From assembly GCF_024519725.1 (NCBI RefSeq), contig NZ_JALJRK010000021.1, positions 1 through 64,000 on the forward strand: 64,000 bases of DNA, given 5' to 3'. Of this stretch, positions 1 to 20,020 are shown in pieces (the stretch's first letter is position 1; each line of letters opens with the position of its first letter). The notes under the pieces are model-generated. The model was not told the DNA's origin. It worked only from the letters and a program-made list of their open reading frames with translations, and ran no database searches. Origin of the DNA: Microvirga sp. Mcv34. GTDB taxonomy: Bacteria; Pseudomonadota; Alphaproteobacteria; Rhizobiales; Beijerinckiaceae. The translations under genes and the position numbers were made by a program.

Positions 1-1
1 C

Positions 2-106
2 ATCGACGTGCGGGACGAGCGGCATCAGCACGTGTTCACTGTCACCGCATCGCTGAGGATCGACTGGTATGCCGAACCGTCTCAACTGCATCCTGGGAGC
101 GGGTAA
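2..106 (+). CDS. C-terminal end of an unknown protein (partial, enters from left edge)
   Basis: An open frame of 34 codons runs in from the window edge and ends with TAA at 104-106. Third codon positions are mostly G or C, as in the real genes nearby, and the residues look protein-like (for example HVFTVTASLRIDWYAEP). I do not recognise the family. It could also be a chance open frame, since only a short tail is visible. Confidence 0.3.
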   Translation: MDVRDERHQHVFTVTASLRIDWYAEPSQLHPGSG

Positions 107-319
107 CCTGACCTCTCCGGCACCCGGGCCAGCGGTCTTTGACACGCATCAAGGCGGTGTAGGCCGGGCGGCGTTATTCCGGACCGACGGTCGCTCCGGC
201 CAATTGTCGGAAGTGCCTGATGCGCCCTGGGGGAGATGTTCGGGTGCTTCTGTCGTCGCCCCGGAAGGACTTGGGCTATACTCGTATGCCGAAGGCGCGT
301 CGCATCCAGGGAGGCTCGC

Positions 320-1165
320 ATGCTGACGATGCCCGCGATCGTGGCCGATGAACTCGGCAGGCATCTCGCCGACGACTTCCGGCGGCTGTTCGGATCCGCG
401 CACCAGGACGAAGCGGAGCGGCTCGACGGCATCGCTCGCGTGGCGCTGGAATGCCTCGGCAAGAGCGACGCCCTCTACCACAACGTCGAGCACACGTTCC
501 TGGTCACCCTGGTCGGCCGTGACATCCTGCACGGACGCATGCTGACCGAGCGCCTGGAGCCGGAGGACTTCTCGCACCTTATTGTCGCCTGTCTGCTGCA
601 CGACATCGGCTATGTGCGCGGCATCCTGAAGAACGATGGCAAGGACAGGTTCGTAGTCGATGCCAGCGGGCGGACCGTGGCTCTGGAGCGGGGTGCGTCA
701 GACGCGGCGTTGACCCCGTATCATGTCGACCGCTCCAAGCTCTTCGTCGCCGAGCGCCTCGGGCAGTCGCCGACGCTCGATGCCGAACGGGTGGCGCGGG
801 CGATCGAGTTTACTCGGTTCCCGGCGGGCCAGCCTGGCGCCGATGCGCCGGAGGACCGCGAGGGGCGGCTGGTGCAGGCCGCCGACCTGATCGGCCAGCT
901 CGGCGACCCACTCTACCTGAAGAAGGCGAATGCGCTGTTCTACGAGTTCGAGGAGATCGGCCTCAACCGCCAGCTCGGCTACGCCTCCCCGGCCGACTTG
1001 GTCGAGCGCTACCCGGACTTCTACTGGACGAGCGTCTCGCCCCATCTCGAGCAGGCCGTAGGCTACTTGAACGTGACGGCGGCGGGCCGGCAGTGGATCG
1101 CGAACCTGCACAGCCACGTGTTCTGCGCCGAGCACGCCTTCACGCTGATGGGGCCGCAGAGATAG
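320..1165 (+). CDS. HD-domain metal-dependent phosphohydrolase
   Basis: A 281-residue soluble protein of the HD superfamily. The visible ligand set is Y53-H54-N55 with H58, the HD pair H94-D95 in LLHDIGY, and D189 in QAADLIGQLGD, the usual order of a metal-binding HD hydrolase. The opening YHNVEHT block resembles the part of HD hydrolases related to cyclic-nucleotide phosphodiesterases, but the substrate cannot be told from sequence. I start it at ATG 320 because a GGGAGG ribosome site lies just upstream; the frame stays open to 236 but has no such site there. It stands alone in gene-poor accessory DNA, with no partner gene next to it. Confidence 0.8.
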   Translation: MLTMPAIVADELGRHLADDFRRLFGSAHQDEAERLDGIARVALECLGKSDALYHNVEHTFLVTLVGRDILHGRMLTERLEPEDFSHLIVACLLHDIGYVRGILKNDGKDRFVVDASGRTVALERGASDAALTPYHVDRSKLFVAERLGQSPTLDAERVARAIEFTRFPAGQPGADAPEDREGRLVQAADLIGQLGDPLYLKKANALFYEFEEIGLNRQLGYASPADLVERYPDFYWTSVSPHLEQAVGYLNVTAAGRQWIANLHSHVFCAEHAFTLMGPQR

Positions 1166-1617
1166 GCGCGGAAGTGGCGTCGACCGGCCGGATCACCTTC
1201 GGAGATCGCTCGCATCGCCTGAAGGAGATGGACGGCCCAGCCGGCGCCTGCAGCCCTCGGAGCGACATTGTTGCGAGGGAACACCGGGCAGGGCCAGGAG
1301 CCGGACCATATGCCGAACATTGGCGATTTGACGGCACCCGGACCATCGGCCGCTCGGTCCTGCCTCCGTCGGTGTCCACTGAGCGGATCGGGGACCATTC
1401 TGCAGTCTACCCGGGTGCCGTGCCTGCTCTGCGAAGCCAAGCGGCCCTTGCGTTCCGCTTCTGCGGCGAGGTCACGCTCCTGGGATAGGAGGCCGGGCTG
1501 CCAGCCAAGTCGCAGCGCAGCCGCACGGTCGCGCTTTCGCCTTGTGGCGTTTTGATGCTTATACGCTCACGATCAACTCGTGCGGAGGCCATCCGATTCT
1601 TCATTGAGGAGGGGAAC
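1166..1617. other. Intergenic stretch with no supported gene
   Basis: About 450 bases between the HD-domain gene and the small acidic protein gene. Frames are open on both strands because the DNA is GC-rich, but none has a ribosome site or recognisable product. I see no repeat or RNA gene in it. Confidence 0.5.
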
Positions 1618-1950
1618 ATGGGTGAGTGGAACACGGTCTTCGAAGGCGAGGTGGAGGGGCGCCTGGTCACCGTGAAGGTCTACCAGAGCGCCGATGGCGA
1701 GGACCACGAGGATGAGGGAGACCCGACAGTACGGGTCACGACAACGACTGTTGATGACTATCCCGGGGTTCTGGAGGGAGAGGACGGCAATACCCTTTTG
1801 GTCGAGCGGGAGGAAGCGGGGCGTCTCGTCACGCTGGAGCCCTATAGCCTCAATGACTTGGAAGGCGAGCTGATGGAGGTCGGATTCAGCCCCGGGGCGG
1901 CCGCGACAATCCGCAGCAAGGTTTCCGCTCGAGTCATTCAGGGGCGGTAA
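1618..1950 (+). CDS. Small acidic protein of unknown function
   Basis: A 110-residue acidic protein. The start at ATG 1618 is set by a strong GAGGAGGGG ribosome site ending four bases upstream; an in-frame upstream extension to 1552 lacks such a site. Residues 1-75 look beta-rich with an Asp/Glu-rich loop (GEDHEDEGDP) and a run of threonines, and the end (SPGAAATIRSKVSARVI) looks helical. No signal peptide or membrane segment is seen. I do not recognise the family. It is flanked by non-coding DNA and has no operon partner. Confidence 0.6.
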   Translation: MGEWNTVFEGEVEGRLVTVKVYQSADGEDHEDEGDPTVRVTTTTVDDYPGVLEGEDGNTLLVEREEAGRLVTLEPYSLNDLEGELMEVGFSPGAAATIRSKVSARVIQGR

Positions 1951-2043
1951 ACGAGAGGTGAACGCTTCAGCTCCGTTCCATGCTCCTTCGGCATGCCAGG
2001 GCTGACCGCCTCCGGGTTTGTCTGGGCCCTGGAGGCGCTGTAA

Positions 2044-2169
2044 ATGCCCCTCCTCCATCACGACCTCTCGTGGTGGGTTTCTTCCCTGAACACGGCCACC
2101 GTTCTGGTGGCCTCTTTGGCCTCGCGGCCCTCGCGCTGCGCGGATCACATTGTGTGCGTGCATTATTGA
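2044..2169 (+). CDS. Possible 41-residue small protein upstream of the DUF1127 gene
   Basis: ATG 2044 is preceded by GGAGG at an eight-base spacing, and the frame ends at TGA 2167-2169, nine bases before the DUF1127 start. The product would have a short hydrophobic stretch (NTATVLVASLA). Only the ribosome site and position support it. It could be a leader peptide for the next gene or a chance frame. Confidence 0.2.
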   Translation: MPLLHHDLSWWVSSLNTATVLVASLASRPSRCADHIVCVHY

Positions 2170-2178
2170 GGTTGCGTC

Positions 2179-2328
2179 ATGTTCCTGTCCGTCATTCTCT
2201 CCAGCTTTCGGCAATGGCTCCGTTCGCGCGAAACAGCCCGCCAGCTCTCCGTGCTATCGGACCGGGAGTTGTCCGATATCGGGATTTCCAGGCATGATAT
2301 CAGCCATGTCGCCCGCCAGGGGCGCTAG
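2179..2328 (+). CDS. DUF1127 (YjiS-like) small protein
   Basis: A 49-residue basic protein starting at ATG 2179 with GAGG eight bases upstream and ending at TAG 2326-2328. Its core, RQLSVLSDRELSDIGISRHDI, is the classic DUF1127 pattern (R.L..LsdreL.DIGisR.di). Members in Agrobacterium and relatives are known as small arginine-rich proteins that affect RNA turnover and phosphate or carbon use; whether this one does is inference. It lies in the accessory region with no recognisable partner except a doubtful small frame just upstream. Confidence 0.8.
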   Translation: MFLSVILSSFRQWLRSRETARQLSVLSDRELSDIGISRHDISHVARQGR

Positions 2329-2575
2329 CGTCACGGCTCGATGTCCGAGGCCGGTGGCACGGCGATCAAGGTCCGCCCGTGAGGCGCTGCCACCTCGATC
2401 GTTGTAACCGCAGCGGAGCCAAGCACCAGGCGTCGTCAGCGCGCTCGCGGCAGCTTCGGGCTCTCTCACGTTCGCGCGAGCAAGCCCGAGCAGGTGTTGG
2501 TTGCTGTCGTGGCGCTCCGGTCGGAACCCGCCCTGGGGCTGGCGCTTGCTCCCTGGGGACAGCCAGCGGAGCGTC

Positions 2576-2821
2576 ATGTACATGCCTATTCCCTTGCCCA
2601 ACCAGCCCTACCCGGAGCCGACGCCGGCTGATCCCAATCCGGCTCCGGTCAGCCCGCCTACCCCTCCCGAGGGGCCGCAGCCCGAGCCCGTCGGGGTGCC
2701 GCCGACGATGCCTGGAGACATCCCTTCTCCCGGCGAGCCGGTCGGGGTGCCCCCAACCTCGCCGCCGGAGATCCCTGCCACACCCACGACGCCTCAGCCC
2801 ACCGCGCGAGATGCTCCATAG
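2576..2821 (+). CDS. Proline-rich low-complexity small protein
   Basis: An 81-residue protein made almost wholly of Pro, Glu, Thr and Ser, with the unit EPVGVPPT occurring twice (about residues 43-50 and 61-68). ATG 2576 and ATG 2582 are both possible; GGAG at 2568-2571 fits the second better by spacing. No signal peptide or membrane segment is visible. Such extended proline-rich peptides occur in this bacterial group, but I know no function. The base composition favours long open frames, so some doubt remains. Confidence 0.5.
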   Translation: MYMPIPLPNQPYPEPTPADPNPAPVSPPTPPEGPQPEPVGVPPTMPGDIPSPGEPVGVPPTSPPEIPATPTTPQPTARDAP

Positions 2822-3063
2822 AGGATCAGGCAATTGGCGTGGCCCGGTCGTAGGCGTCGACCCTCGCGAACTCTCGCGTCGTCGTACTCGCCATCGGTGA
2901 ACGGATCTTCACCGGCTCCACAGCGCGGGGCATCGGCAGGCCGGTCCCAGCTAATGTGCACCACATAGCCGCCTAGCCGGATATGGTAGGTCCAAGCACC
3001 CGGTTCGGTTCTGGGCGGAGCCTCCCGTTCGATCAGCCGCCAGAGACAGGCGGGTCGTCCCAT
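2794..3063 (-). CDS. Possible hypothetical protein, 89 residues
   Basis: The residue make-up looks like a real protein in its middle (AWTYHIRLGGYVVHISWDRP and GEDPFTDGEYDD), with mostly plausible codons. It overlaps the 3' end of the proline-rich gene by 28 bases, tail to tail. No ribosome site precedes ATG 3063. I do not recognise it. Confidence 0.3.
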   Translation of the reverse strand: MGRPACLWRLIEREAPPRTEPGAWTYHIRLGGYVVHISWDRPADAPRCGAGEDPFTDGEYDDARVREGRRLRPGHANCLILYGASRAVG

Positions 3064-3185
3064 GCCAAGTGTTCGCCGGCGAACCCTGGCTGTCAGAGCC
3101 TTGTGGGACGGGCTGCCGCCGGGTTCTTCACGTCACGCTCAACGACTGCTGTGGTCCGGGAGGGTCATCCATCCCGGTGGCCTTC

Positions 3186-3440
3186 CTACGGCATGGCGGC
3201 CCACACCCCGGCAGCCTTCAGCTGGAAGAACCCAGCCGCATCCCGTATGCCAGGATCCGGAGAAAAGGCTTTCAGGCTCTGCAGTGTCAGCACAAGACGT
3301 CGCCGGAAGGGCCATGGCAAGGCAGCCAACGTCTCGTCTACGCTCAGGCGCGCGGCTCCCTCGACCCCAGCTTGGTCGGCGATGTCATCGATCCGGCTCT
3401 GGATCGCACTCAGGCTCGCTAGGGTGAGAACAACATCCAT
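3186..3440 (-). CDS. Possible hypothetical helical protein, 84 residues
   Basis: Taken from ATG 3440, the product is predicted by eye to be helical (SLSAIQSRIDDIADQAGVEG, then WPFRRRLVLTLQSLKAF). The composition is protein-like, but there is no ribosome site and the frame stays open upstream to 3506. It could be a relic or a chance frame. Confidence 0.25.
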   Translation of the reverse strand: MDVVLTLASLSAIQSRIDDIADQAGVEGAARLSVDETLAALPWPFRRRLVLTLQSLKAFSPDPGIRDAAGFFQLKAAGVWAAMP

Positions 3441-3705
3441 CGGTACTACGCACAGGTACGCTGCAATCTCGTTCGTGAACGAGCTCGAACAAGGTACGTT
3501 CCTCAAGCTTGGCCTCCGACCGCGGCCGCGGCCTTAACCACGCCATGGGGCCGGTCGAGCACCGGGGAGACCGGATCGTATGTTGCGGAATGAGACAGCA
3601 AGCCAAGCCTTGGAAGAGATTGTCTATTTGGTCCCGAGGGCTGGCATTAGTGATTGATTAACCATGCTTTTACATGCTCTCCCTCACAGGAACTTGGGAG
3701 ACGCC

Positions 3706-3885
3706 ATGGCTAGCGATCGACAGGACGACAGACGAGGACAGCTCGACAGAGCAAGCCAGAGCCGGATCGGCCGCAGACTGCGGTTGGTCTATCGCCCCTT
3801 TATGGAGGAGCCGGTCCCGGACGGCTACATTGACCTTCTCCTTGCGCTTCGCCGCAAGGAACGAGAACTGGGGCGCCTCCCGTGA
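3706..3885 (+). CDS. nepR: NepR-like anti-sigma factor (orphan)
   Basis: A 59-residue protein starting at ATG 3706, five bases after GGGAG. Residues 20-53 match the NepR core: RIGRRLRLVY, then EEPVPDGYIDLLLAL, compared with the usual IGr.LR..y....eEPvPdrfldLL..L. NepR sequesters the ECF sigma factor EcfG in the alphaproteobacterial general stress response and is itself captured by phosphorylated PhyR. Here neither ecfG nor phyR is next to it, so it is an orphan copy. The loss of the usual acidic residues between LVY and EEPVP (here RPFM) may change partner choice. Its role is inferred only from the motif. Confidence 0.7.
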   Translation: MASDRQDDRRGQLDRASQSRIGRRLRLVYRPFMEEPVPDGYIDLLLALRRKERELGRLP

Positions 3886-4267
3886 GGGGGGCGCTTCGGT
3901 GAATGGCCGAGCCTGCGTGTATGCCTTCCGTCCATCCGTCAGGTGAACGAAGGCATGGCACCGCTGGGGAGGGGTTTGCGGCGATCGAAGCAGCCTCCGA
4001 TGCCTACGCGGCCTCCACCTATGCCTCCGGCTGTCCACATACGACAACGGCCATAGAAGGGTCCTCGACGGCTATCCCTGTCCCGGCGTACGGCTACCTG
4101 GCGGCGGGCCGTAGTCTCAGGAGTGGAGCACGAGAAACTCGGGGGCCGTCTAGCAGGCTTTTGGTCTGGAAGGGTGTGCTGCCTGATTGGCCCTAGTCCA
4201 GGCCCCTCCGCCCCGAAAGGCTGCTTCCTAGTACCTTTCCCTTAGGACCCGACTTCCAATCGTTGGA
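3886..4267. other. Intergenic stretch with no supported gene
   Basis: About 380 bases between the NepR-like gene and the convergent small gene. A 33-codon proline-rich frame from ATG 3955 exists but has no family match or convincing ribosome site. No repeat or RNA gene was seen. Confidence 0.4.
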
Positions 4268-4570
4268 CTATTGAGGCGGGCTCGTCGTTGATGCTCCTGC
4301 AACGAAGAGCCTCTCGAAGTCAGCTGGCGCATGCTGCAGCCCGTCTGCATCGGCGATGAGGATATCTCGTGCACCCTCGACAAGCAGAGCTCGAGCCTTC
4401 TCCGCCGCAGCCGTAGCGGTCTCGCATGTGACCGCTACGGCTCCCTGCTCCCCGATTCCCGTCACGACAAAGAACATGCTGCGCCCCATCGGTAAGACCT
4501 GTGAAACCTCTTCAACCCTCTTCCTGAACGGCCGTGGCGCTTTCGCGGCCTTCGATGTGTACCGGGCCAT
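4268..4570 (-). CDS. Small hypothetical protein, 100 residues
   Basis: The C-terminal two thirds (from MFFVVTGIGEQGAVAVTCETATAAAEKA to the end) read as a compact alpha/beta domain: a strand, a helix rich in Ala and Lys, then the turn DILIADADG. I recall similar short proteins as uncharacterised genes in rhizobia and methylobacteria. I start it at ATG 4570 (MARYTSK); ATG 4492 is also possible and would give about 74 residues. Neither has a clear ribosome site. It sits head to tail behind the hybrid histidine kinase, convergent with nothing nearby. Confidence 0.5.
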   Translation of the reverse strand: MARYTSKAAKAPRPFRKRVEEVSQVLPMGRSMFFVVTGIGEQGAVAVTCETATAAAEKARALLVEGARDILIADADGLQHAPADFERLFVAGASTTSPPQ

Positions 4571-4785
4571 CCAATCCGTACGAGAACTCAGATGCCATGG
4601 GTGAGGTTTCGGGACGGCACTTGGCAGGGCGTCACACTCTCGCCGCAACATTCGAGGTCGACCCACCACCGGCACAATATCGTCCAGAGCGCGGCTCGCT
4701 GGAACTCCGCAATGCTGGCGGTACGGTTCGGGCGGGCCGGCCATGGTGTCCCACATACGTTTACCGTTCTTCCCGGGGTGAGCGG

Positions 4786-6888
4786 CTACTCCGCAGCGGA
4801 CGCTGCCGAGTGCGGAAGCGCTCCATTTTCGTTGGTCCGGGGAGCTTCCATCACGGACCGGACCCTCTCGGCGAGATCGGCCAGCCGGTAGGGCTTGTAG
4901 AGCAGATCAACGTCCCCGACCGTGGTGTCGCCATCCACGTAGCCTGTTGTCAGGAGCACGCGGATGTCGGGCCAGTCCCGCCTGATCAGTCGCGCCAGGT
5001 CGATGCCGGTGAGCGTCCCCGGCATCCGTACGTCCGAGAATACGAGGCGCACATGCCGGTTCGCCTTCAACACGCGAACCGCCTCGTCGCCGGTCGCAGC
5101 CTCGACGACGTCGAACCCCAGGGATCGGAAGTTCGAGATCACCACCTGGCGTACCGCGGGATCGTCCTCGACGACTAGCACGGTCCGCTCGGCGCCGAAG
5201 GGTCCGGGTGTCGCGGATTGGGTCTCGATCGGCCGCGCGGCCGCTTTTTCCGAACGAGGCATGAAGAGGCGGATGGTCGTTCCGGCATTCGGGACGCTGT
5301 CGACCTCGGCATGGCCCCGGGACTGCTGCATGAAGCCATACACCATACTGAGCCCGAGACCCGTGCCCTTGCCACTCTCCTTGGTGGTGAAGAACGGCTC
5401 GAACACGCGCTCAATCACCTCGGGCGGCATGCCGGTGCCAGTATCCGACACCTCGACGACGACGTATTCGCCGGCCGGCAGGTTCGTTCTCTCACTGATG
5501 GCCCTGTTCTCGACAGAGATCGTCAGATCTCCTCCGTCCGGCATGGCATCACGGGCATTGACAGCCAGATTGAGGAGAGCTGCCTCGAATTGCGCGCGAT
5601 CAACCTGGATGGGCCAGACCTCATGCTCCGAGCGAAGGCTCACGTTGATGCGCTCGCCAAGGGTCCGCCGCATCAGATCGAGCAGGCCCGGCAGCAGAGC
5701 CTTCACGTTGATGGTCGAGACCTGCAGCGGCTGGCGGCGCGAGAAACTGAGCAGCCTGTAGGTGAGGTCCGCACAATGCTGTGCGCTCTCCATTGCCATC
5801 CGCACTCGCCTCTCGGCCTTCTCGTCGCCCTGAATGGTCTTCTTCAACAGGTCGAGATTGCCGATGACGACGCTGAGCATGTTGTTGAAGTCGTGCGCGA
5901 TGCCGCCGGTGAGACGGCCGATCGCCTCCAGCTTGCTGGCGTGGAGCAGGTTCTGCTCCATCTGCTTCCGATCTGTGATGTCGAACCACATGCCGAAGAA
6001 CTCGCGCGGGCGGCCGTCATCGTCCCGCATGACGACGATCTGGTCGAGGAAGTGGCGCTCGGTCCCGTCGGCGCAGCGCCAGCGGTACTCGATGGCCGCC
6101 ATGCCCTCCTCAGGCAGCCGTCGGAGCTGGTTCACAACCTGCTCGCGGTCGTCGGGATTGAGCCGCGACGACCAAAAATCCGGACGCCCGAGAAATGCTT
6201 CGGGTGGAAAACCGGTAATGTGCTCGACGCTCTCATTGGTGAAATGGAGCTGCCGGTGGTCCTCCTCGACCGAGGCGGTATAGAGCGTGATCGGCAGCGA
6301 CTGGAGCACAAGGGTTTGATGCTCCTCGCGGCGGCGCAGGGCCTGCTCGGCCTTCAGCTTCTCGCTGCGGACCCGCAGATTTTCCATGAGCAGCCGCCGC
6401 TCCTCCTCGCCTTGCCGGCGGATCTCTTCTGTCTTGCGGTAGAGGTCGACGAAGATCTCGACCTTGGATTTCAGGATCAGCGGCTCGACCGGCTTGAACA
6501 CGTAGTCGACCGCGCCTGCCGAGTACCCCTTGAAGACATGCACGTCGTCCTTGTTGACGGCGGTGAGAAAGAGGATCGGCACCCGCGCCGAGCGCGGCCG
6601 GGCCCGGATCAGACCGGCCACCTCGTAGCCGTCGAGCCGCGGCATCTGCACGTCGAGCAGGATAACGGCGAAGTCGTCCTGCAACACTTGTCGCAAGGCT
6701 GCCTCACCGGAATCGACTGTGACGATCTCGATCCCCGGCGAGCGCAGCACTTCTTCCACGGCGAGGAGATTTCTGGGATCGTCATCGACGACCAGGATCT
6801 TCGCAAGCACCGGATCGGAGGGAGCGCCGGTCGAACTTACGTAAACTGAGGCCGAACCGGAACCCGCCGGACCACCAACGTTAGTCAT
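4786..6888 (-). CDS. Hybrid histidine kinase (REC-PAS-HisKA-HATPase-REC)
   Basis: A 700-residue cytoplasmic sensor kinase with no membrane segments. An N-terminal receiver (residues 29-145) has its phospho-acceptor Asp79 in LLDVQMP. A coiled linker (150-190) leads to a PAS domain (about 195-310). The HisKA box has His332 in GGIAHDFNN. The HATPase domain (about 430-545) shows the N box NLAVNARDAM, the G1 box DTGTGM and the G2 box GKGTGLGL. A C-terminal receiver (567-680) has Asp619 and Lys665. This layout is typical of kinases fed by another phosphorelay through the first receiver and passing phosphate to the second. No response regulator or phosphotransfer gene is adjacent, so the output is unknown. 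The kinase box is the ordinary HisKA type, not the HWE type usual for PhyR control. Confidence 0.9.
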   Translation of the reverse strand: MTNVGGPAGSGSASVYVSSTGAPSDPVLAKILVVDDDPRNLLAVEEVLRSPGIEIVTVDSGEAALRQVLQDDFAVILLDVQMPRLDGYEVAGLIRARPRSARVPILFLTAVNKDDVHVFKGYSAGAVDYVFKPVEPLILKSKVEIFVDLYRKTEEIRRQGEEERRLLMENLRVRSEKLKAEQALRRREEHQTLVLQSLPITLYTASVEEDHRQLHFTNESVEHITGFPPEAFLGRPDFWSSRLNPDDREQVVNQLRRLPEEGMAAIEYRWRCADGTERHFLDQIVVMRDDDGRPREFFGMWFDITDRKQMEQNLLHASKLEAIGRLTGGIAHDFNNMLSVVIGNLDLLKKTIQGDEKAERRVRMAMESAQHCADLTYRLLSFSRRQPLQVSTINVKALLPGLLDLMRRTLGERINVSLRSEHEVWPIQVDRAQFEAALLNLAVNARDAMPDGGDLTISVENRAISERTNLPAGEYVVVEVSDTGTGMPPEVIERVFEPFFTTKESGKGTGLGLSMVYGFMQQSRGHAEVDSVPNAGTTIRLFMPRSEKAAARPIETQSATPGPFGAERTVLVVEDDPAVRQVVISNFRSLGFDVVEAATGDEAVRVLKANRHVRLVFSDVRMPGTLTGIDLARLIRRDWPDIRVLLTTGYVDGDTTVGDVDLLYKPYRLADLAERVRSVMEAPRTNENGALPHSAASAAE

Positions 6889-7730
6889 CGATTTAGCCCG
6901 GTTTCTGCCCGGCCCCTTGGATCGGGTTTGCTGTCAATCAAGCCTTGGTGAAGCATCCTGGTCAGAACGCGCGGTGATCGTGGCTCAGCCTTTTAAATGG
7001 CGTCACCTGAGACCAGCTCGCCGGATGGCCCAGGTGCGAGTGCGCGCGGGCACAACGCTGATTTCGAGGAGAGATGGAAGCGGACAAGGGTCACTCCACA
7101 GCAGAGTGGGATGAAGCGGACAGCAGCTCTACCCCAAGCTGACGGGCAAAAGAAGAGGCAGTCGGCGGAGCCGTTTGGTAGGTGTTGCGCACGCTTGCCC
7201 CTCGTAACACTATAATCCTTATACGACAGCGACAATCCTGCTGCGTACAAGAGAGGAGATAGTTCAGAAAGCAGCTGGTCAAGGACCTTTTGGCTGCTGG
7301 AATGACGTCGCCTACACGCCCGGCGATTGGCTCGCCTTCCGTGCAGATGGCTCCGCAGCGCATATTGGAGGCGTAAGAGCAGGTCCGACACCAATCCGGG
7401 ATGCGGCCCGCGTCGAGGCCGAACCGACCCCGCTCCTGCTGCATCCGTCGAGGGAGCTTGGGCACGCCAAGACGCTTCTGGCCCAAGATGCGTCTGAGGA
7501 GGATGAGGTGCTGTCCCCTCATGGCAGGCAAGGGCATTCAGGACCAACTGGCGGAGGCTCTGCCACGGAACCATGGTGCCATCCGGCAGCTGCGGCAGCT
7601 CCCTGGCCTCCGCGGTTTCCAAACCAGGATCGGACGCAGCGGAGCAACCTGCAGGACAACGTCGCGAACGTCGAGGCCCCAGAGAAAACTGGCGATAGGC
7701 TCCGTATCCCGTTGGAGCCCCGCTACGCCG
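6889..7730. other. Long intergenic stretch with no supported gene
   Basis: About 840 bases between the start of the kinase gene and the end of the recombinase operon. It includes a locally AT-richer patch near 7200-7290. Open frames on both strands lack ribosome sites and recognisable domains; one minus-strand frame (7091-7537) is cysteine-rich and could be a decayed gene. No tRNA-like or palindromic element was recognised. Confidence 0.4.
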
Positions 7731-8225
7731 TCAATGCTTGGCCCGACGGGGGGACCTGGGCGAGGTCGCCGTGACAGGCGGCGGGACCGGCAGCTTATGG
7801 GCCCGCGCCAAATCCTCGAGCATGACGATTCGGCGTTCGCGCTGGTCGAGGAGGCCGATCAACGAGGCGTTCTGGGCGCGGAGAGCATCGTTCTCGCGCC
7901 GGAGGACCGCCAGCTCGCCCTCCAGGTCTCCCAATCGGCCACGCTTGGACTTCCGCAACCGCAGCTCGATGTTTCTTAGCGCCTCTTGGTACCGTTCGGT
8001 GAGGTCGGGGTACTTCCCGACGTTCGGCCGGTCGATCAGGGGGTCCGACCACTGGGCGAGGCTCCCGTCGGGCCCTCCCCATCGGCGCAACGCAGCATGG
8101 GTCTTGGGAATTTCGCTGCTCTCCGGCACCCCTTCTGCCGCCCAACGCTCCAGGATCTCGACCTTGGCCCGGAACGCCTCCAGGACACGGCGCTGTTTCT
8201 CCTCAGGTGACTCGCTCCTGCTCAT
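7731..8225 (-). CDS. Coiled-coil accessory protein of the recombinase operon (TnpC/GinD-like)
   Basis: A 164-residue charged protein, last gene of a three-gene operon; its ATG at 8225 lies two bases after the stop of the 815-residue recombinase, with GGGGGTGA as ribosome site. Residues 1-60 look like a helical DNA-binding-type head (SSEIPKTHAALRRWGG), and residues about 85-150 form a coiled coil (LEGELAVLRRENDALRAQNASL), ending in a proline-rich basic tail. In Tn554 the third gene tnpC, and in GInt islands ginD, hold the same place behind tyrosine recombinases and are known to support transposition. The assignment here rests on position, size and coiled coil, not on a sequence search. Confidence 0.6.
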   Translation of the reverse strand: MSRSESPEEKQRRVLEAFRAKVEILERWAAEGVPESSEIPKTHAALRRWGGPDGSLAQWSDPLIDRPNVGKYPDLTERYQEALRNIELRLRKSKRGRLGDLEGELAVLRRENDALRAQNASLIGLLDQRERRIVMLEDLARAHKLPVPPPVTATSPRSPRRAKH

Positions 8226-8227
8226 GA

Positions 8228-10675
8228 TCACCCCCGGTGCTTTCCGTGCACGGCCGCCTTCGCGGCGGCGACTTTCGCCTTGAGCGAAGCGAGCTTGGCC
8301 TTCGCCGCCACTCGGCTGGGCTCTGCGGGTGCCTTCTCGGCTGCCTCCGTGATCCGCTCGATCCTGCGGTTGATAACCGTCACGTTCTCGCCGAACGCGA
8401 CGCAATGGCGGCATGAGAGGCAATCCTCGGTCGACGCGAAGGCGTAGTCCGGCCGATGGGCGCCGTCCGGACCGCTCTCCTCGGCTTTGTTGCGGAGGCA
8501 GACGGCGTCCGCCAGGTCGGACGGGTCGCCAAGCCTGCAACCGCAGTGGGTGTGCCGGCCCGGATGCGGTTCGATGTACCGGTTGGGAGCGGCGTCGCGC
8601 AGCAGCCGCACCAGCGCCTCGCGTTCCCGGTCCGGCGACAGGTTCGAGCGGCCGCTGATCAGCACGGAGCGGCGCGCGCGCTCGATCATTTTTTCCAACT
8701 CGTCATAGAGCGCCGCCGCGCCGAGGCCGATGGGGCTCTCGGCCCCGTCGTACATGTCCAGGACGCGCTCGACGAAGGCCTCCTGCCGCACGTCTTCGTG
8801 CTCGCGCGCCCGCTCTTCAAGGCTGATCAATGCCGCCCGGGCCGACGTGAGGACGGCGTCCTGCCTTGGCTGCTCCATCTCCTCCGCGATCCTCAGCCGC
8901 GCGTCGATCACCTCCCGCAGCCGCGTCAGCGCGCCGGGGATCGCCTCGGTAATATACCGCCGGGTCATCTCGGGGTCGAAGTGCAGCAGGAAGCGGCTCA
9001 ACGCGTCGAGCGAGGAAAAGCGGTTTCCGTGATAGTAGTAGACGGAGAAGGCGCGGCGCAGCTGGTGCGGTGCGAATTTCCAGACGACGCCGTCCTTCTG
9101 CTTGCTCGCACCGACGACCTCCGCGAAGTCATTCAATGTAAAGCGGAGGGCGGTCTCGATGTAGACGCGGCCCTGGTCCTCGTCGCTGACCTGCGTCAAC
9201 GAGGGCCTGTGGATCTTCACGAGCCAGTTCTTTCCGGTGCTCTCCCGTGCCGACTCGCTGAGCTCCTCCAGCAGACGGACGGCCACGGGCACCATGGCGG
9301 GGACGGGGATCTGCTCGATGTCGCGGATCGTCTTCTCGATGTAGCTCGACAGCCACCAGTTCCCGAACGGATCCTTCACCGTGCAGCCGGCTTGAAGGCT
9401 GCGCACCTCGTCGCGGCGCCGCGCCGACAATCCCGCGATCAGGATCAGGCACGCGGTGACCACGTGGCCGAGCGCCTCCTCCAGCATCATCCCGTCCGCA
9501 TATGCGGGACTGTTGCGCCCACTCCGCCGCCATTGCGGCACGAGCCGCGGGACGCCCGGCTGGCTGGGCGGGAGGTGCTCGGCGATGATGGCATCGACGG
9601 CCTGCCGGAACGCCGCCATCCTCTTCTTCTGCTTGCTGATCTTGCCCGGATCGCCCTGCACCTCGCGCGCCAGCCTGCAGATCGTCAGGATGGGACCGGA
9701 GTAATCGAGGACCCATCGGGCCGCACCATCAAGCAGCGCCAGCCATTGCTCCGGACCCGGGGTGCCGGTCCGCCCTTCTCCGGCGCCAGGGGAGCGCCCG
9801 AGTTGTCTGGCCCGTGCTGTGAGACTTACCTTTGCGAAAGGGTCGAAGCCAAGCGGGTCATGAGAAAGCAAACCGATGTCCGAGAAATAGGCCAGCCTCT
9901 TCCACGCCATCAGAGCCTTTGTGACATAGCTGACGGTGGGTCTTGGATCGCTGAAGGAGGTTTCATACCAATCCGTAGGCTCAGGATTTGCGGCCTGGCT
10001 GAAATAGAGTTCCGGATTGGTTCGCTCAATCAACGCTGTGAGCCGTGGGTGCATCCAGGGCGAAATGAGCATCTGTCGCGGCACCCCGAGTTTCACACCC
10101 ACGGCGCTGAAATCGATCCTCGGTGAACTGCTATGCACATAGGTCGGCCACGACCACTCTCCGCGCTGCAATTGCGCCTCAAGACGCTGGAGGCGGTCGT
10201 CCATTGGGACGAGAGCCACCACCCCCTGCTTCAGGCGTGCACAGTAGTCCTCGAACAAGGACGGTCCGATCTGCCGCATCTCACCGAGGCCTAGCGCCAA
10301 ACGCCAGCGGACGATCCAGAAGACGTGCCGGAGCTTGTCGGTCAGCCCTTTGGCGGTGTCCATGGCCATGTACTGCCCGCGGATTGCTTCGATCGCCAAG
10401 ATCTTCGCCGTAAGAAGGTCTCGGGCGAGAGGCTCGTGCGTGAGGAGGATGCCGTCGACATCGACGGGTTGGGCGAAGTCCAAGGGAAGGTCCGGATCGA
10501 GCACCTTGTCGGGGTCTTCGCTCCGGATAGTCCAATAGTTGTGGCGCAGGTCTGTCGCGTCCTCGGTGAACACTTCCTCCGAGGTTGCGCTGGGTTTTGT
10601 TGAGACCAGCCATTTGGGGCGGTTGTAGCCCCGGAGCACCCGGTCGTGGTCCGCAAGGAAGAAGCCGTTGGCCAT
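8228..10675 (-). CDS. Large tyrosine recombinase with C-terminal Cys-rich domain
   Basis: An 815-residue site-specific recombinase. The catalytic residues of the phage-integrase fold can be read in order: Arg420 (in ARRRDEVRSL), a possible Lys448 in the beta-hairpin region, His537 and Arg540 (HQLRR), His565 (FLLHFDP) and the nucleophile Tyr574 (TRRYI). The first 330 residues are a large N-terminal region without a family I recognise. Residues 705-760 hold a cluster of Cys and His (HTHCGC, C726, CLSCRHC) that could bind zinc. The gene starts two bases after the preceding recombinase gene, whose end supplies GGAGGA. It is the only member of this operon with a full catalytic set, so it is the likely cutting enzyme of the island. 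Confidence 0.8.
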   Translation of the reverse strand: MANGFFLADHDRVLRGYNRPKWLVSTKPSATSEEVFTEDATDLRHNYWTIRSEDPDKVLDPDLPLDFAQPVDVDGILLTHEPLARDLLTAKILAIEAIRGQYMAMDTAKGLTDKLRHVFWIVRWRLALGLGEMRQIGPSLFEDYCARLKQGVVALVPMDDRLQRLEAQLQRGEWSWPTYVHSSSPRIDFSAVGVKLGVPRQMLISPWMHPRLTALIERTNPELYFSQAANPEPTDWYETSFSDPRPTVSYVTKALMAWKRLAYFSDIGLLSHDPLGFDPFAKVSLTARARQLGRSPGAGEGRTGTPGPEQWLALLDGAARWVLDYSGPILTICRLAREVQGDPGKISKQKKRMAAFRQAVDAIIAEHLPPSQPGVPRLVPQWRRSGRNSPAYADGMMLEEALGHVVTACLILIAGLSARRRDEVRSLQAGCTVKDPFGNWWLSSYIEKTIRDIEQIPVPAMVPVAVRLLEELSESARESTGKNWLVKIHRPSLTQVSDEDQGRVYIETALRFTLNDFAEVVGASKQKDGVVWKFAPHQLRRAFSVYYYHGNRFSSLDALSRFLLHFDPEMTRRYITEAIPGALTRLREVIDARLRIAEEMEQPRQDAVLTSARAALISLEERAREHEDVRQEAFVERVLDMYDGAESPIGLGAAALYDELEKMIERARRSVLISGRSNLSPDREREALVRLLRDAAPNRYIEPHPGRHTHCGCRLGDPSDLADAVCLRNKAEESGPDGAHRPDYAFASTEDCLSCRHCVAFGENVTVINRRIERITEAAEKAPAEPSRVAAKAKLASLKAKVAAAKAAVHGKHRG

Positions 10676-10676
10676 C

Positions 10677-12623
10677 TTAGTCCTCCAGGCTCGGCAGCAC
10701 GATCTGCTGGGATCTTAGCGCCAAGGAGGCCCGCCGAGCGGCCTGCCAGTACCGCGGCCCGAGGTGCTTGCGGAACAGCTCCCTGCCGATGGCCTTCGCC
10801 AGCGCCAGGAGCGGAAGGAACTCTAGCCTGAAGCGGGCGCGGTTCGGGTAATAGGCCTGCATTTCCCGAAGCTTCCGGTGGATCAGGTAGAGTTCGCCGA
10901 GGCGCTCATCGTCCGGCTCGAAACGCAGCGCAGGAGGAGCCGGTCCCGCATCGTCCGGGGCCTCGTCGAGCAGACCAAGAGCTGCGGTGATGCCCGCCCT
11001 GTCGGCCGTCCGGCGCAAGCGCACGAGGTCCGCCGCCGGCTTGTCGAGCTGCAGGGCGACATGCTCCTGATTGAGATCGCGCACGACGATGGCTTCCATC
11101 GCGTCTTGGAACTGCCGGATGCTGGCGTCCAGCTCCGCGTTCACCACCGGCGTGTTCAGGTAGTGCGGCATGAGTACCGACGAGCTGGCATGCCCCGCCG
11201 CCGCCCTGACGGCGTCGAACGAGCCGGTCTCCTGCCGCCGGAGGATCAGGTAGGTTTTCCGGATGGCCTTGAAGTTGAAGCCGGGACGGGCCAGCACGGA
11301 GCCCTTCGGATAAACTGCGGGAGAAACCACCCGCGTGTCCGACGCGTAGGTTCTCGGCTGGAGGTTGCCATTAATGAAGATCCAGAACCGATCGCCGAAA
11401 AGGTCGTGTGAGAAATGCCCGAACTCGGCCCTGAGGGCGTTTGCCATTCGCATGTAGCGCTCAAGGATGTCCGCAGCCGGAAGCGTGCTGCCGCCACCTG
11501 TGGCTTCGAGACATGCGTAACCGTCGAGTTGGCGGGCGGGATCATAGGCCTCCACGGTTCGGTCCCATTGATCGAGAGCCACACGAAGCCTGCCTTCGTC
11601 CAGACGATGGTTCTCGCCAAGGAAGGCCAGGACATGGTGCCCGGCCCGCCTCTTGAAGCTTTCGATGAACGAGGCCTCTGCGATATACGAGCCTCTAGCG
11701 GAGCGGAAGACGAAAGGATTTTGGTGGAGGTCCCGTGCAGGTTGGAGGTTCCAGCCGGTATCGCAGATCAGGACGCCCAGAGCGCCGCTCATCGCGGGAG
11801 CCAAGGGTCCGAAGCAGCCGCGGTACGCCATATTCATCACCGCGGCTCGGTCCCACAGTCCTGCCGTATCGAACTGTCCGGCCTGGTACCATAATGCTGG
11901 ATCACGTGGCAGGACGTAATCTGCGACCCGCCTCGGAAGCTTGAAGGAGCCGGTCTCGCGAATATGATCCCGGAAGATCAGGAGCCCGTTGCGCAAGGCC
12001 TCGCGGGCTTGTGGATCTTGGTCCGGCATAGGCGGGTCGCCTCGGAGGAGGCTTTGGCCAAGGTTGAATAGCTCCTCGTAGTAAAGGAATAGCGAGACGA
12101 AGGACGAACGGACGAGCTCCATGGCGCGGCGCTCACGCTCGTACCCTTCGTAGCCTTCCAGCTCGGGCCAGTCGGCGGCTCCCAAGCTTGGGAACTCCTT
12201 GGTTGGAGGAGTGCCTACCCTGATCCATTTTCGGTTGAAATTCTCCGGAATGCCGCGCACGCCCCGGTCCCTGAGGATTTCCAAGGCATGCCTGACGGAG
12301 TGGGCCCGGTACATCCGGGTGCCTTCGGTGAGGTGGCTCTCCCCAGAAACCCTGTACGCGTCGCGCCACTGGTTGAGGACGTCGACGAATGCGCGCTCGT
12401 GTGACATGCCGTCGGGAAATAGGCTCTCGACTTCGTCGCCAGGTGCACCGGCAAAGCAGCGGCGAACCCGGTCGGCGAGGCTGTCTGGTTCCGCTTGAAT
12501 GAGCCACTCGAGGAACGGAATGATCCCGTAGCGCCGGGCGTAAGTCATCTGGGAGACTGCCTCGACCATCTCTGGTCCAAAGCAGTCTTGCCACCGCAAC
12601 GACGTGTCCATCATAACCGCCAC
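10677..12623 (-). CDS. Large tyrosine-recombinase-like protein, first Arg apparently missing
   Basis: A 648-residue protein, first in the operon. It begins at GTG 12623, set by AGGAGG seven bases upstream. A tyrosine-recombinase C-terminal box is visible: K452-A-I-R455, then AGHASSS with His478, then Tyr488 in MPHYLN. The region where the first catalytic Arg is expected reads CDTGWNLQPARDL, so Asn292 appears to stand in its place. Residues 500-648 form a long helical extension. With two large recombinases and a coiled-coil gene in tandem, the set resembles Tn554 tnpABC or GInt ginABCD modules, though one recombinase of those sets is not seen. It may be a structural or target-choice partner of the 815-residue enzyme. 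Confidence 0.7.
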   Translation of the reverse strand: MAVMMDTSLRWQDCFGPEMVEAVSQMTYARRYGIIPFLEWLIQAEPDSLADRVRRCFAGAPGDEVESLFPDGMSHERAFVDVLNQWRDAYRVSGESHLTEGTRMYRAHSVRHALEILRDRGVRGIPENFNRKWIRVGTPPTKEFPSLGAADWPELEGYEGYERERRAMELVRSSFVSLFLYYEELFNLGQSLLRGDPPMPDQDPQAREALRNGLLIFRDHIRETGSFKLPRRVADYVLPRDPALWYQAGQFDTAGLWDRAAVMNMAYRGCFGPLAPAMSGALGVLICDTGWNLQPARDLHQNPFVFRSARGSYIAEASFIESFKRRAGHHVLAFLGENHRLDEGRLRVALDQWDRTVEAYDPARQLDGYACLEATGGGSTLPAADILERYMRMANALRAEFGHFSHDLFGDRFWIFINGNLQPRTYASDTRVVSPAVYPKGSVLARPGFNFKAIRKTYLILRRQETGSFDAVRAAAGHASSSVLMPHYLNTPVVNAELDASIRQFQDAMEAIVVRDLNQEHVALQLDKPAADLVRLRRTADRAGITAALGLLDEAPDDAGPAPPALRFEPDDERLGELYLIHRKLREMQAYYPNRARFRLEFLPLLALAKAIGRELFRKHLGPRYWQAARRASLALRSQQIVLPSLED

Positions 12624-12674
12624 AGCGTTTCCTCCTGCAGTTGCGAGGGGAAAGGCCGCGGGCTGTCCAGGCGC

Positions 12675-12693
12675 CTTCCTTCGCAGAAGGAAG
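12675..12693. repeat. Perfect inverted repeat, CTTCCTT-CGCAG-AAGGAAG
   Basis: Seven-base arms around a five-base spacer, between the recombinase operon and the island junction. The arm CTTCCTT recurs as a direct repeat at 12734-12740. The form suits a tyrosine-recombinase binding site. Confidence 0.5.
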
Positions 12694-12708
12694 CGTGACA
12701 GCCAGAAA

Positions 12709-12727
12709 AGCCTAGGTCAACTAGGCT
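12709..12727. repeat. Perfect inverted repeat, AGCCTAG-GTCAA-CTAGGCT
   Basis: Seven-base arms around a five-base spacer, the same geometry as the repeat 16 bases to its left and about 30 bases from the ligase junction. It may be a recombinase arm site or, less likely, a weak terminator hairpin. Confidence 0.5.
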
Positions 12728-12747
12728 CTTAGACTTCCTTCGGTATT

Positions 12748-14022
12748 CTAAATATGCGCAAAGATCTTGGCGAAGCGCTTTGCCCGCCCCCGGATGGTGA
12801 CGATACCGTCATCGACAGTCACGATGTCCCCTGTGTCATGCCATCCGTCCACGGGCGGGCGCAGGCCACCCGGCGCCGTGGGATCGAGATAGCCTTTCAT
12901 GACGTTCGGACCGCGCACGTGCAGGCGCCCGCCCTCGTGAATCCCCTCGACCGGATCGAGGCGCCATTCGATGGCCGGCAGGATCGGCCCGACCGATCCG
13001 GGCCTGTTGCGGTCCGGCAGGCTCACGGAGATGACCGGCGAGCATTCGGTCGCGCCATAGCCTTCCAGGATGATCGTGCCATGCTTGGCCCAGAGCTTGC
13101 GCGTCTCGTCCTTCACCCGCTCGGCCCCGGCAATGACGTAGCGGACGCTCGCCAGATCGTTCTCGCCCGCCGCGCGGGCATAGCCCTGCAGAAAGGTATC
13201 GGTCGCGAGCATGATCGTGGCATGCGTGCCGGCCACGAGCTTCGGGATCTGGCGGTAATGGAGCGGGCTCGGATAGAGCACGGACTTCATGCCGTTGAGC
13301 ACCGCCGTCAGCAGTCCTGCGGTCAGGCCGAAGGAATGGAAGATCGGCAGGGCATTGAAGAACACGTCGTCGGGCCGCAGCACGTCGCCCGCGAGCGCCT
13401 TCACCTGATAGGCGTTGGCGACGAGATTGGCGTTCGACAACACCACGCCTTTCGGTGCGCCTTCCGAGCCGGACGTGAAGAGCACGACGGCCGGGTCGTC
13501 GGGTTCGACCTTCGCGCCCGCATGAACGCGCCGCGCCATCCAGGAATCGACGAGGCCGCGCAGCTTGTCGAGGCTCGTAAGGTCGGCCCGCACGTCCTCC
13601 AGCCACAGGATCCGCCGTCCCTCCCCCAGGGTCGCCACGAGGTCGTCGAGCTTGCCCTGCTCGACGAAGCGGCGGGAGGTCACGATGGTGTCGATCCCAG
13701 CCAGCTCGCACGCGGCCTTCAGGTTCTTGAGCCCGGCCGTGAAGTTCAGGAAGGCGGGAACGCGCCCGAAGGCATTGAGCCCGAACAGGGTGACGGCGAT
13801 GGCCTGGACGTTCGGGAGCAGAACGCCGATCGTCTCGCGCTCCCGCGTCAGGCCCGCCAGCTTGCGCCCGAGGACGAGCGAGCCCAGGACGAGGCGCCCG
13901 AAGGTGATCGGCTGGCGCTCCAGATCCTCGAGGGCGACCTTGTTCCGGCCGAACAGGTCCCGCGCGTCGAGAAGGGCGCCGAACAGGCTCTTGCGCGTCC
14001 GCGCGATGTCGAACTCCGTCAC
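12748..14022 (-). pseudogene. AMP-forming acyl-CoA/acyl-ACP synthetase, 3' truncated by the island
   Basis: An adenylate-forming ligase, 424 residues where the family usually has about 500 or more. The ATP-binding A3 motif TSGSEGAPKG is at 183-192, GYGATECSP at 321-329 and DGWHDTGD at 392-399. The sequence stays family-like to residue 420 (GRAKRFAKI), where relatives continue with a GEMVSL-type stretch and the C-terminal domain that carries the catalytic Lys. Here it turns into FAHI and a stop. The sequence resembles the synthetase part of Aas (acyl-ACP synthetase for lysophospholipid acylation). Without the C-terminal domain it should not complete adenylation. The gpt gene lies 18 bases upstream of its start and is probably cotranscribed. 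Confidence 0.8.
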
Positions 14023-14040: not shown

Positions 14041-14547
14041 TTAACCGGCCGAGCCTTCGCGGATCGGCGCCTGGTAGGCCAGGCCCATATCCCAGGGGAA
14101 GTAGATCCAGGTGTCCTGGCTCACTTCCGTCACGAAGGTGTCGATCAGGGGACGTCCGGCGGGCTTGGCATAGACGGCGGCGAAATGCGCGTTCGGCAGC
14201 ATGTCGCGCACGATCTTGGCGGTCTTGCCGGTATCGGTCAGGTCGTCGATCACGAGGACGCCCTTGCCCTTCCCGTCGCCCACGGCCTTGATCGAGGGCG
14301 CGATGTCCTTCAGCACCTGCAGGTCGCCCTGGTTCTTGTAGTCGTGGTAGCTCGCGATGCAGACGCTCTCGATGAGCCGCAGGTCGAGCTCGCGCGCCAC
14401 GATGGCGGCCGGCACGAGCCCGCCACGGGTGATGCAGACGATCGCCTCGAAGGGTCCGGCGGAGGCCAGGCGCCAGGCGAGCGCCCGGCAGTCGCGGTGG
14501 AACTGATCCCAGGAGACGGGGAAGGCTTTGGGAGAGGTCGGGGACAT
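14041..14547 (-). CDS. gpt: Xanthine phosphoribosyltransferase
   Basis: A 168-residue cytoplasmic type I phosphoribosyltransferase that salvages xanthine and guanine with PRPP. The PRPP motif [13 protein letters not shown] is at 97-109. The early ITRGGLVPA block and the late WIYFPWDM block are typical of the Gpt subgroup, and length fits (E. coli Gpt is 152). It starts 42 bases after the end of the molybdopterin-binding gene and is followed by the truncated ligase gene, suggesting a minus-strand operon that the island has cut at its 3' end. Confidence 0.93.
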
Positions 14548-19333: not shown

Positions 19334-20020
19334 ATGAGCGGCGACGAGACTCCCCATTATCACGGCCATCGCGACCGGTTGCGCGCCCGCTTCATGGAAA
19401 CGGGCGGAGATCCGCTGCCTGATTATGAGCTGCTGGAACTCGTCCTGTTCCGCTCCATTCCGCGCCGGGACGTGAAACCCATCGCCAAGGAACTCCTGAA
19501 GCGCTTCGGGACCTTCGCCGAGGTGCTGGCAGCCGCCCCGGCCCGTCTCATGGAGGTGGATGGGATCGGCGATAGCGTCGTGACCGATCTCAAGATCGTC
19601 GAGGCCTCCGCCCGCCGCTTGACCAAGGGCGAGGTGGCGAAGCGGCCGGTCCTGTCCTCCTGGACCTCCGTGATCGATTATTGCCGCACCGCCATGGCCT
19701 TCATGGACAAGGAGCAGTTCCGGCTGCTCTTCCTCGACAAGCGCAATGCCCTCATCGCCGATGAGGTGCAGCAATCGGGCACAATCGACCATACGCCGGT
19801 CTATCCGCGCGAGGTGGTGAAGCGGGCGCTGGAACTCTCCGCTTCCGCCCTCATTCTCGTGCACAATCACCCGTCCGGCGACCCGACCCCCTCGTCCGCC
19901 GACATCAAGATGACCCGCGAGATCATTGAGGTCGCCAAGCCCTTGGGGATCACCGTCCACGACCACATCATCGTGGGCCGCGAGGGGTACGCCAGCCTGA
20001 AGGGCCTGCGCCTGATCTGA
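19334..20020 (+). CDS. radC: RadC/MPN-domain DNA repair protein
   Basis: A 228-residue RadC homologue. The N-terminal half carries a helix-hairpin-helix-like region ending in [12 protein letters not shown] (about 72-83). The C-terminal half is the MPN/JAMM domain with the zinc motif [14 protein letters not shown] at 177-190 (His177, His179, Asp190). Despite its name, its part in repair is unsettled. It follows map in relatives with little between; here an AT-rich two-gene insert lies between them. The product ends close to the convergent exoD-like gene. Confidence 0.92.

Follow-up and report, generated by a model that had tools for sequence, protein, structure and literature searches.

Interrupted ligase gene and boundaries of the island

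The window analyzed here, bases 1-64000 of the 83.3-kb contig C133 in the draft genome of Microvirga sp. Mcv34 (G000), carries near its left end a truncated gene for an acyl-acyl carrier protein (ACP) ligase, followed by a set of recombinase genes that belong to one end of an inserted island. The ligase open reading frame (ORF; 12748..14022, minus strand) encodes 424 aa, of which residues 4-420 align with the ligase portion of acyl-[ACP]--phospholipid O-acyltransferase (NF005291, E 5.3e-175). Residues 1-420 are native and are followed by four element-supplied codons (F-A-H-I) and a stop, as stated in the original prediction, which was made from this sequence alone; relatives carry full-length frames. 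Since the window begins at contig base 1, the element runs off the contig.

The ligase frame was surveyed in 37 genomes of the genus Microvirga, G000 included; genome G071 is outside this survey, and ten genomes (G061-G070) are outside the ligase comparison. Frames of at least 521 aa occur in 34 of the 37 genomes. The frames of G000, M. arsenatis SYSU G3D203 (G013) and M. flocculans ATCC BAA-817 (G022) have 430, 439 and 439 aa, and their ends fall within 20 residues of each other. At the same base as in G000, the DNA of G013 and G022 switches to the identical sequence TTTGCGCATATT, and so does that of G071. The frame is cut at this one base in all four genomes that possess close relatives of the recombinases. 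A truncated ligase in genomes without the recombinase genes, named in the original prediction as an observation against insertion, was found in none of the 34 Microvirga genomes examined that lack a close relative of the recombinase, all of which have an unbroken frame; likewise, none of the four interrupted genomes shows a continuation of the intact ligase beyond the junction.

The missing 3' part of the gene, for which a genome search had been suggested, lies on another contig of G000 (C263:32684-32986, minus strand) and is also present once each in G013 (C2:12819-13121), G022 (C5:47206-47508) and G071 (C1:2521629-2521931). Each of the four tails is preceded by ...TGTGTGAAAA and AAGATC. Aligned separately to the empty-site genomes G035, G016 and G020, in which the ligase is uninterrupted, the two G000 flanks overlap by exactly 6 bp in three of the three genomes tried. 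Since these flanks lie together in relatives, insertion at a 6-bp core is established as firmly as sequence comparison allows. Loss of the tail, or a deletion rather than an insertion, is ruled out because the tail has been located and the flanks are contiguous with a 6-bp overlap. It had been predicted that the element is either longer than 12 kb or has lost the ligase tail; the former holds, as the G000 island spans at least 39.6 kb (12.76 kb on C133 and 26.8 kb on C263). The ligase ends after codon 420 because the island begins there; with ~97 C-terminal residues lost, the protein is probably inactive.

The core AAGATC at the left junction (attL) occupies positions 12763..12768 on the minus strand and overlaps the interval 12757-12766 in which one end of the element had been placed. 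The left terminus of the element, TTTGCGCATATT (12751..12762, minus strand), is an imperfect inverted repeat of its other end, TGTGTGAAAA. Three subterminal GAAGGAAG/CTTCCTTC repeats are found at 12734-12741, 12686-12693 and 12675-12682 (12675..12741, minus strand), and a fourth copy lies ~41 bp inside the other end. The four Microvirga elements each have three to four copies less than 200 bp from their ends, whereas the density across the whole element in G022 and G071 would predict 0.02-0.04 copies; the motif was picked post hoc. We infer that these repeats are candidate accessory binding sites. The 139-bp leader between the core and the first recombinase gene contains two palindromes in addition to the repeats; its stem-loops are unconvincing when compared with shuffled sequences (z -1.77). 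A candidate hybrid promoter at attL (TCGCCA, 17 bp, TAGAAT; 9/12 matches) was rejected, as its second hexamer is not conserved in G013 and G022.

Including one core, the element measures 127,922 bp in G022 and 97,726 bp in G071. The two ends are on separate contigs in G013, as they are in G000, where contig C263 ends inside a transposase gene (Mu-transpos_C_2), the likely cause of the contig break. The region C263:57613-59621 (L078:419-1621 and an adjoining ORF) represents a two-gene insertion sequence with Mu-transpos_C_2 that is IS21-like by appearance.

Recombinase genes at the two ends

Three recombinase-like genes and one small gene, designated A to D, are attributed to the element. Next to the left core, int1 (gene B; 10677..12623, minus strand) encodes a 648-aa protein that lacks the box I Arg (TGWN) and the box II His (HxxR) and keeps R, GH and Y; it matches no Pfam or NCBIfam family. 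It is followed by int2 (gene C; 8228..10675, minus strand), encoding an 815-aa RHRHY-like tyrosine recombinase with R, HxxR, H and Y present, and by gene D (7731..8225, minus strand), encoding a 164-aa coiled-coil-like protein. At the right end of the island, on C263, int3 (gene A) encodes a 551-aa catalytic recombinase with R, HxxR, H and Y, and its stop codon is 10 bp from the core. The box residues of int1 were assigned by eye. The Phage_integrase matches of int2 (E 1.5e-4) and int3 (E 9.8e-4) are weak and below the Pfam cut-off. Thus, int1, int2 and D are located at one end and int3 at the other, all on one strand and in the same direction as the ligase. The frames of A, B and C are open in all four Microvirga elements. 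A fold assignment of int1 from its predicted structure was discarded because the model is of unusable quality.

For each gene, a profile built from 10-11 sequences was aligned by hhalign to the proteins of SE-6945, a strand-biased circularizing integrative element (SE), and to a contiguous four-gene cassette of Sphingobium pF2, which is GInt-like and not a published GInt; the SE-6945 targets are single sequences. The int3 profile matches gene A of Sphingobium pF2 with 97.2% probability (E 4.5e-11), and the int2 profile matches gene C with 98.7% (E 3.4e-16); neither has a good match to other genes of that cassette. Probabilities are lower for the SE proteins (int2 versus IntB, 32.7%; int3 versus IntA, 4.8%). 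The SE proteins themselves match the Sphingobium cassette at 95.1% (IntA versus A) and 91.8% (IntB versus C).

Occurrence and gene order in relatives

Among 48 Microvirga genomes, int1 has matches at E 0.001 in six and int3 in eight, the weaker matches of both including those in G036 and G069. Strong full-length matches of int1 and int3 occur in an identical set of four genomes, in all of which int3 adjoins the ligase tail. In a collection of 72,556 plasmid records, int1 and int3 match the same two, and int2 matches these two and two weaker ones. An order-wide search, limited in sensitivity to three scored candidates per genome, gave matches in 3 of 397 genomes, the genome under study included. 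No int1 relative was found in IMG/VR, where the Microvirga-type attP pattern hits 15 stretches, about as many as a rough estimate would give by chance.

The same gene set was found in unrelated hosts at other target genes. The Rhodovastum plasmid RHOApc carries an 11.5-kb element that consists of int1-int2-D, four other genes and int3, and genomes G363 and G377, from another family of the same order, carry elements of 25.3 and 25.7 kb with the split layout; both halves of the target gene were found in each case. Despite the different target genes, the terminal arms in Rhodovastum (TGTGTGAAAA / TTTTCGCACA) are similar to those in Microvirga. The Rhodovastum int1, int2 and D products are labelled 'hypothetical protein' in RefSeq. 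Gene A is at the far end in seven elements (G000, G013, G022, G071, Rhodovastum, G363 and G377), and in all seven split elements examined its stop codon and the core are 3-10 bp apart. The order B-C-D-A is kept in all 14 modules of this branch with readable order.

The cores at the two ends differ in several elements. In G071, the B-side core is AAGGCC and the A-side core is AAGATC; in G363 and G377, these are AAGATC and AAGGAC, respectively. In these three elements the residues that the intact protein should have are encoded by the A-side core and not by the B-side core. Core polarity is uninformative elsewhere, as the cores are identical in G000 and G022 and differ synonymously in G013 and Rhodovastum.

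The contiguous modules are diverse. In G036 and G069, a distant B-C-D-A type of element in which gene D is unconfirmed, the cargo lies beyond A, and the yifB halves are ~45.8 and ~13.5 kb apart. In two Rhizobiales records the cargo is located to the left of B, and recQ resumes ~90 bp after A. Opposite to it stands a further recQ of full length, with 65% identity over the part that both share, which gives the impression of a restored target gene. The B506 int1 is short (530 aa) and is followed by another ORF.

Target sites

It had been suggested that the target is the DNA coding for a conserved ligase motif, and the cut at KRFAK-I|GGE fits this view. The interrupted genes of relatives are cut at comparable places: GLGKT (Walker A) of an SNF2 gene in Rhodovastum RHOApc, YPK|DNTPGC of a Bcp-type peroxiredoxin in G363 and G377 (the Pfam AhpC-TSA profile is cut at position 35), DEAHC|xSQWGHDF of RecQ in the two Rhizobiales records, and NLAP of YifB in G036 and G069. 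With one flank only, the K+-channel filter TTTGYGD (Ion_trans_2) is cut in Antarcticirhabdus, and GYARVST of a serine recombinase is cut in two Azospirillum; the latter assignment is tentative, as it concerns a 31-aa fragment without a Pfam match, and the other half of this gene was absent from a motif scan of the stretches examined. We take these sites to be signature motifs of conserved enzymes; their recurrence at the cuts is an observed pattern, without a statistic. Conservation of the DNA within the genus is unexceptional for the 18-base window at the site: among 27 uninterrupted ligase genes (29 loci minus 2 interrupted), the rank of the att window among all windows is 45% at 18 bp, 31% at 24 bp and 13% at 30 bp. 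Short windows therefore give no support to a choice of the site for unusual within-genus DNA conservation.

Cargo and exchange between islands

The start of the island cargo occupies 1..7730 of the window, and the cargo continues past the contig; it includes an HD-domain protein (236-1165) and a hybrid histidine kinase (4786-6888). In the two complete islands, 19 distinct ORFs were picked and scanned for domains. They encode DnaJ, class I aldolase, ClpB, Lon, GroEL, two Hsp20 proteins and FtsH, as well as a second M41 protease, a Clp AAA protein, a trypsin/PDZ (DegP-like) protease, KaiC-like, TerC, hemerythrin and resolvase proteins, and others. This chaperone and protease content of the G071 and M. 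flocculans islands is reminiscent of the heat-resistance islands of other Proteobacteria, termed transmissible locus of stress tolerance (tLST) or locus of heat resistance (LHR) (PMC8290217). ClpB copies 91-97% identical to the island ClpB are found on other G000 and G013 contigs, where they are unplaced. In Rhizobium sp. CCGE 510 (L068:2896-7112), an AAA_15/OLD-TOPRIM protein and a UvrD-like helicase are encoded as cargo beside a recQ-targeting relative. This arrangement is reminiscent of the Gabija defence system.

Of 96 gene calls in the G071 stretch, 77 were taken as island. Over at least half of their length, 60 of these are matched in the M. flocculans island, 9 in G013 and 6 in the G000 parts, the latter two comparisons covering partial islands. 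When G022 is compared with G071, identity is 74-77% for the interrupted ligase, 94% for A and D, 76% for int1 and 80% for int2; the phosphoribosyltransferase (PRTase) gene that forms the chromosomal flank upstream of the ligase (14041..14547, minus strand, in the window) is 93% identical. These values suggest, and do not prove, island exchange and mosaicism between G022 and G071. In comparison with the other islands, int1 and int2 of G071 are 76-80% identical and int3 and D 91-96%; the left end of the G071 island seems to have been exchanged separately.

Favoured explanation and alternatives

We consider it likely that the island inserted in the Aas-like acyl-ACP ligase gene is a site-specific mobile element that operates as outlined here. 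As a permuted and end-split form, it belongs to the multi-integrase elements (GInt/SE/Tn554 type). A and C would perform strand exchange at the 6-bp core, with the degenerate B and the coiled-coil D as putative accessory DNA-binding partners. Excision would join A to B across attP and thereby restore an A-att-B-C-D unit on the circle; integration would part A from B-C-D by the whole cargo, so that B-C-D would sit behind the interrupted ligase on its strand and A would depend on the other end. That the element is mobile today, that each of its genes is needed and that the switch works as proposed are inferences.

Several observations weigh against this explanation. By hhalign, the int1 profile shows no relationship to gene B (0.2%) or to Tfp (0.1%), and the best match of gene D, to D of the cassette, is weak (1.4%; 0.2% to Srap). 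The predicted structure of int1 is poor (mean predicted local distance difference test score, pLDDT, 61; predicted template modelling score, pTM, 0.42), and PDB sequence profiles gave no credible solved relative. The assignment of B and D therefore relies on their position, the gene order and the degenerate residues. Calls near attL gave no terminator-like site, and a lone promoter-like match that lacks conservation in G013 and G022, which leaves the transcription switch without direct support. Neither an excised circle nor transfer was seen by sequence comparison. Finally, B-C-D-A is contiguous in seven modules (Az39, B506, Antarcticirhabdus, two Rhizobiales records, G036 and G069), which confines the split to a sub-branch and makes it one of several solutions.

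The island could instead have started out as an ordinary GInt or SE, with gene A carried to the far end when one lineage was later rearranged. The gene set is of the same kind, A and C have homologues in a canonical cassette, and GInts have been reported in Alphaproteobacteria (Bardaji et al. 2017, PMC5385486). We nevertheless regard this as quite improbable: A follows B-C-D in all 14 readable modules of the branch, the split form occurs at three different target genes in three host groups, and the relevant passages of Idola et al. (PMC10214605) report no ginC-ginD or tfp-srap blocks in Alphaproteobacteria. It is far harder to believe that the B-C-D element in the ligase and the int3 integrase at the ligase tail are unrelated and came together by chance. 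Such independence would suit the two ends being on different contigs in G000 and G013, and int3 alone is plausible as a single integrase; against it stand the co-occurrence of the genes in four of four Microvirga genomes, Rhodovastum, G363 and G377, their contiguity in seven relatives, and the 3-10 bp that separate the A stop codon from the core in seven split elements.

A single ancient Microvirga insertion, vertically inherited and immobile now, would explain the identical site in four species, and no mobilisation genes were recognised among the scanned ORFs; the PRTase flank gene, 93% identical between G022 and G071, is also comparable to A and D at 94%. This view is unlikely on balance, since the A, B and C frames are open in all four elements and the interrupted ligases of G022 and G071 are 74-77% identical as against 94% for A and D. 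The matches of 60 of the 77 G071 island ORFs in M. flocculans, versus 9 in G013 and 6 in G000, are suggestive of exchange, though not proof.

Beyond the end-split mobile island, it is possible, though we hold it with some doubt, that these elements form a separate alphaproteobacterial group of tyrosine-recombinase transposons. In such a group att would lie between A and B, integration would halve the unit and place B-C-D under the promoter of the disrupted host gene, and excision would reassemble it, which would amount to an integration-dependent mobility switch; the elements would be aimed at signature-motif DNA of conserved enzymes and would form ~100-kb proteostasis islands in Microvirga. 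In Alphaproteobacteria, the elements account for large proteins that otherwise go unannotated and for truncations of conserved genes; two of them move, or once moved, chaperone and protease gene sets.

Comparison with known multi-integrase elements

Besides integrative and conjugative elements (ICEs), the recognized groups of tyrosine-recombinase transposons are few, namely SEs, GInts, RITs and Tn554, according to the overview in PMC10214605. A description of the split layout or of these islands did not turn up in searches of the open-licence PMC literature. Genes for relaxase or conjugation, as in ICEs or integrative and mobilizable elements (IMEs), were absent among the 19 distinct island ORFs scanned, the remaining ORFs being outside the scan.

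The element resembles GInts (Tn6571 family) in its three integrase-like proteins, one of them catalytically degenerate, and one small protein, in its large cargo and site specificity, in imperfect repeats with a 6-nt stagger, and in the homology of A and C to the GInt-like Sphingobium pF2 cassette. The four-gene set of GInts is therefore present, whereas the ginABCD operon at one (5') end is not, as A lies opposite to B-C-D in seven elements and ends at the second core. In GInts, as described in PMC5385486, ginABCD are together at one end with attL on the A side, the other end is short and AT-rich, and the reported cargo ranges from 2.5 to at least 70 kb, as against up to 127.9 kb here. A canonical A-B-C-D cassette is nonetheless found in the alphaproteobacterium Sphingobium yanoikuyae pF2 (L101:3490-8657), despite the survey without ginC-ginD blocks there.

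SEs, described by Nonaka, Yano and co-workers, carry a contiguous intA-tfp-intB-srap at the left end, were detected by these authors in Gammaproteobacteria only, have a median size of 15.7 kb (PMC9345347, PMC10214605) and keep the attB core on the intA side (PMC10214605). The present element shares with them a gene set of catalytic, degenerate, large catalytic and small coiled-coil proteins and a 6-bp core between imperfect inverted arms. If int3 corresponds to IntA, the native core on the A side in the three informative elements (G071, G363 and G377) also agrees. Relatives of SE-6283 insert in bcp, as do the G363 and G377 elements. Unlike in SEs, the four genes are not contiguous at the left end, and int1 and D lack a sequence match to Tfp (0.1%) and Srap (0.2%).

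The target of Tn554 is radC. An apparently intact radC (by eye) is located at 19334-20020 of the window, 6.5 kb from the junction, which is probably a coincidence. Compared by description, Tn554 has two catalytic recombinases, a small coiled-coil-like TnpC and a 6-bp footprint (as characterized in PMC10214605), as the present element does; it lacks a counterpart of Tfp/B. RITs also have three recombinase genes; their products are given in the same source as 315-410 aa each, all with the catalytic Tyr, in contrast to proteins of 551, 648 and 815 aa, one of them degenerate, with a distant rather than adjacent A and an additional gene D.

The division of labour among the several recombinases of such transposons can be addressed here. 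With A at one end and B-C-D at the other, their roles are physically separated, so it becomes possible to ask which end each protein needs and if integration alters expression. In both GInts and SEs, gene A comes after attL and all four genes are grouped (as presented in PMC5385486 and PMC10214605); unlike these known relatives, the Microvirga-type element has recombinase genes at both ends, which should unite only if the island is excised as a circle.

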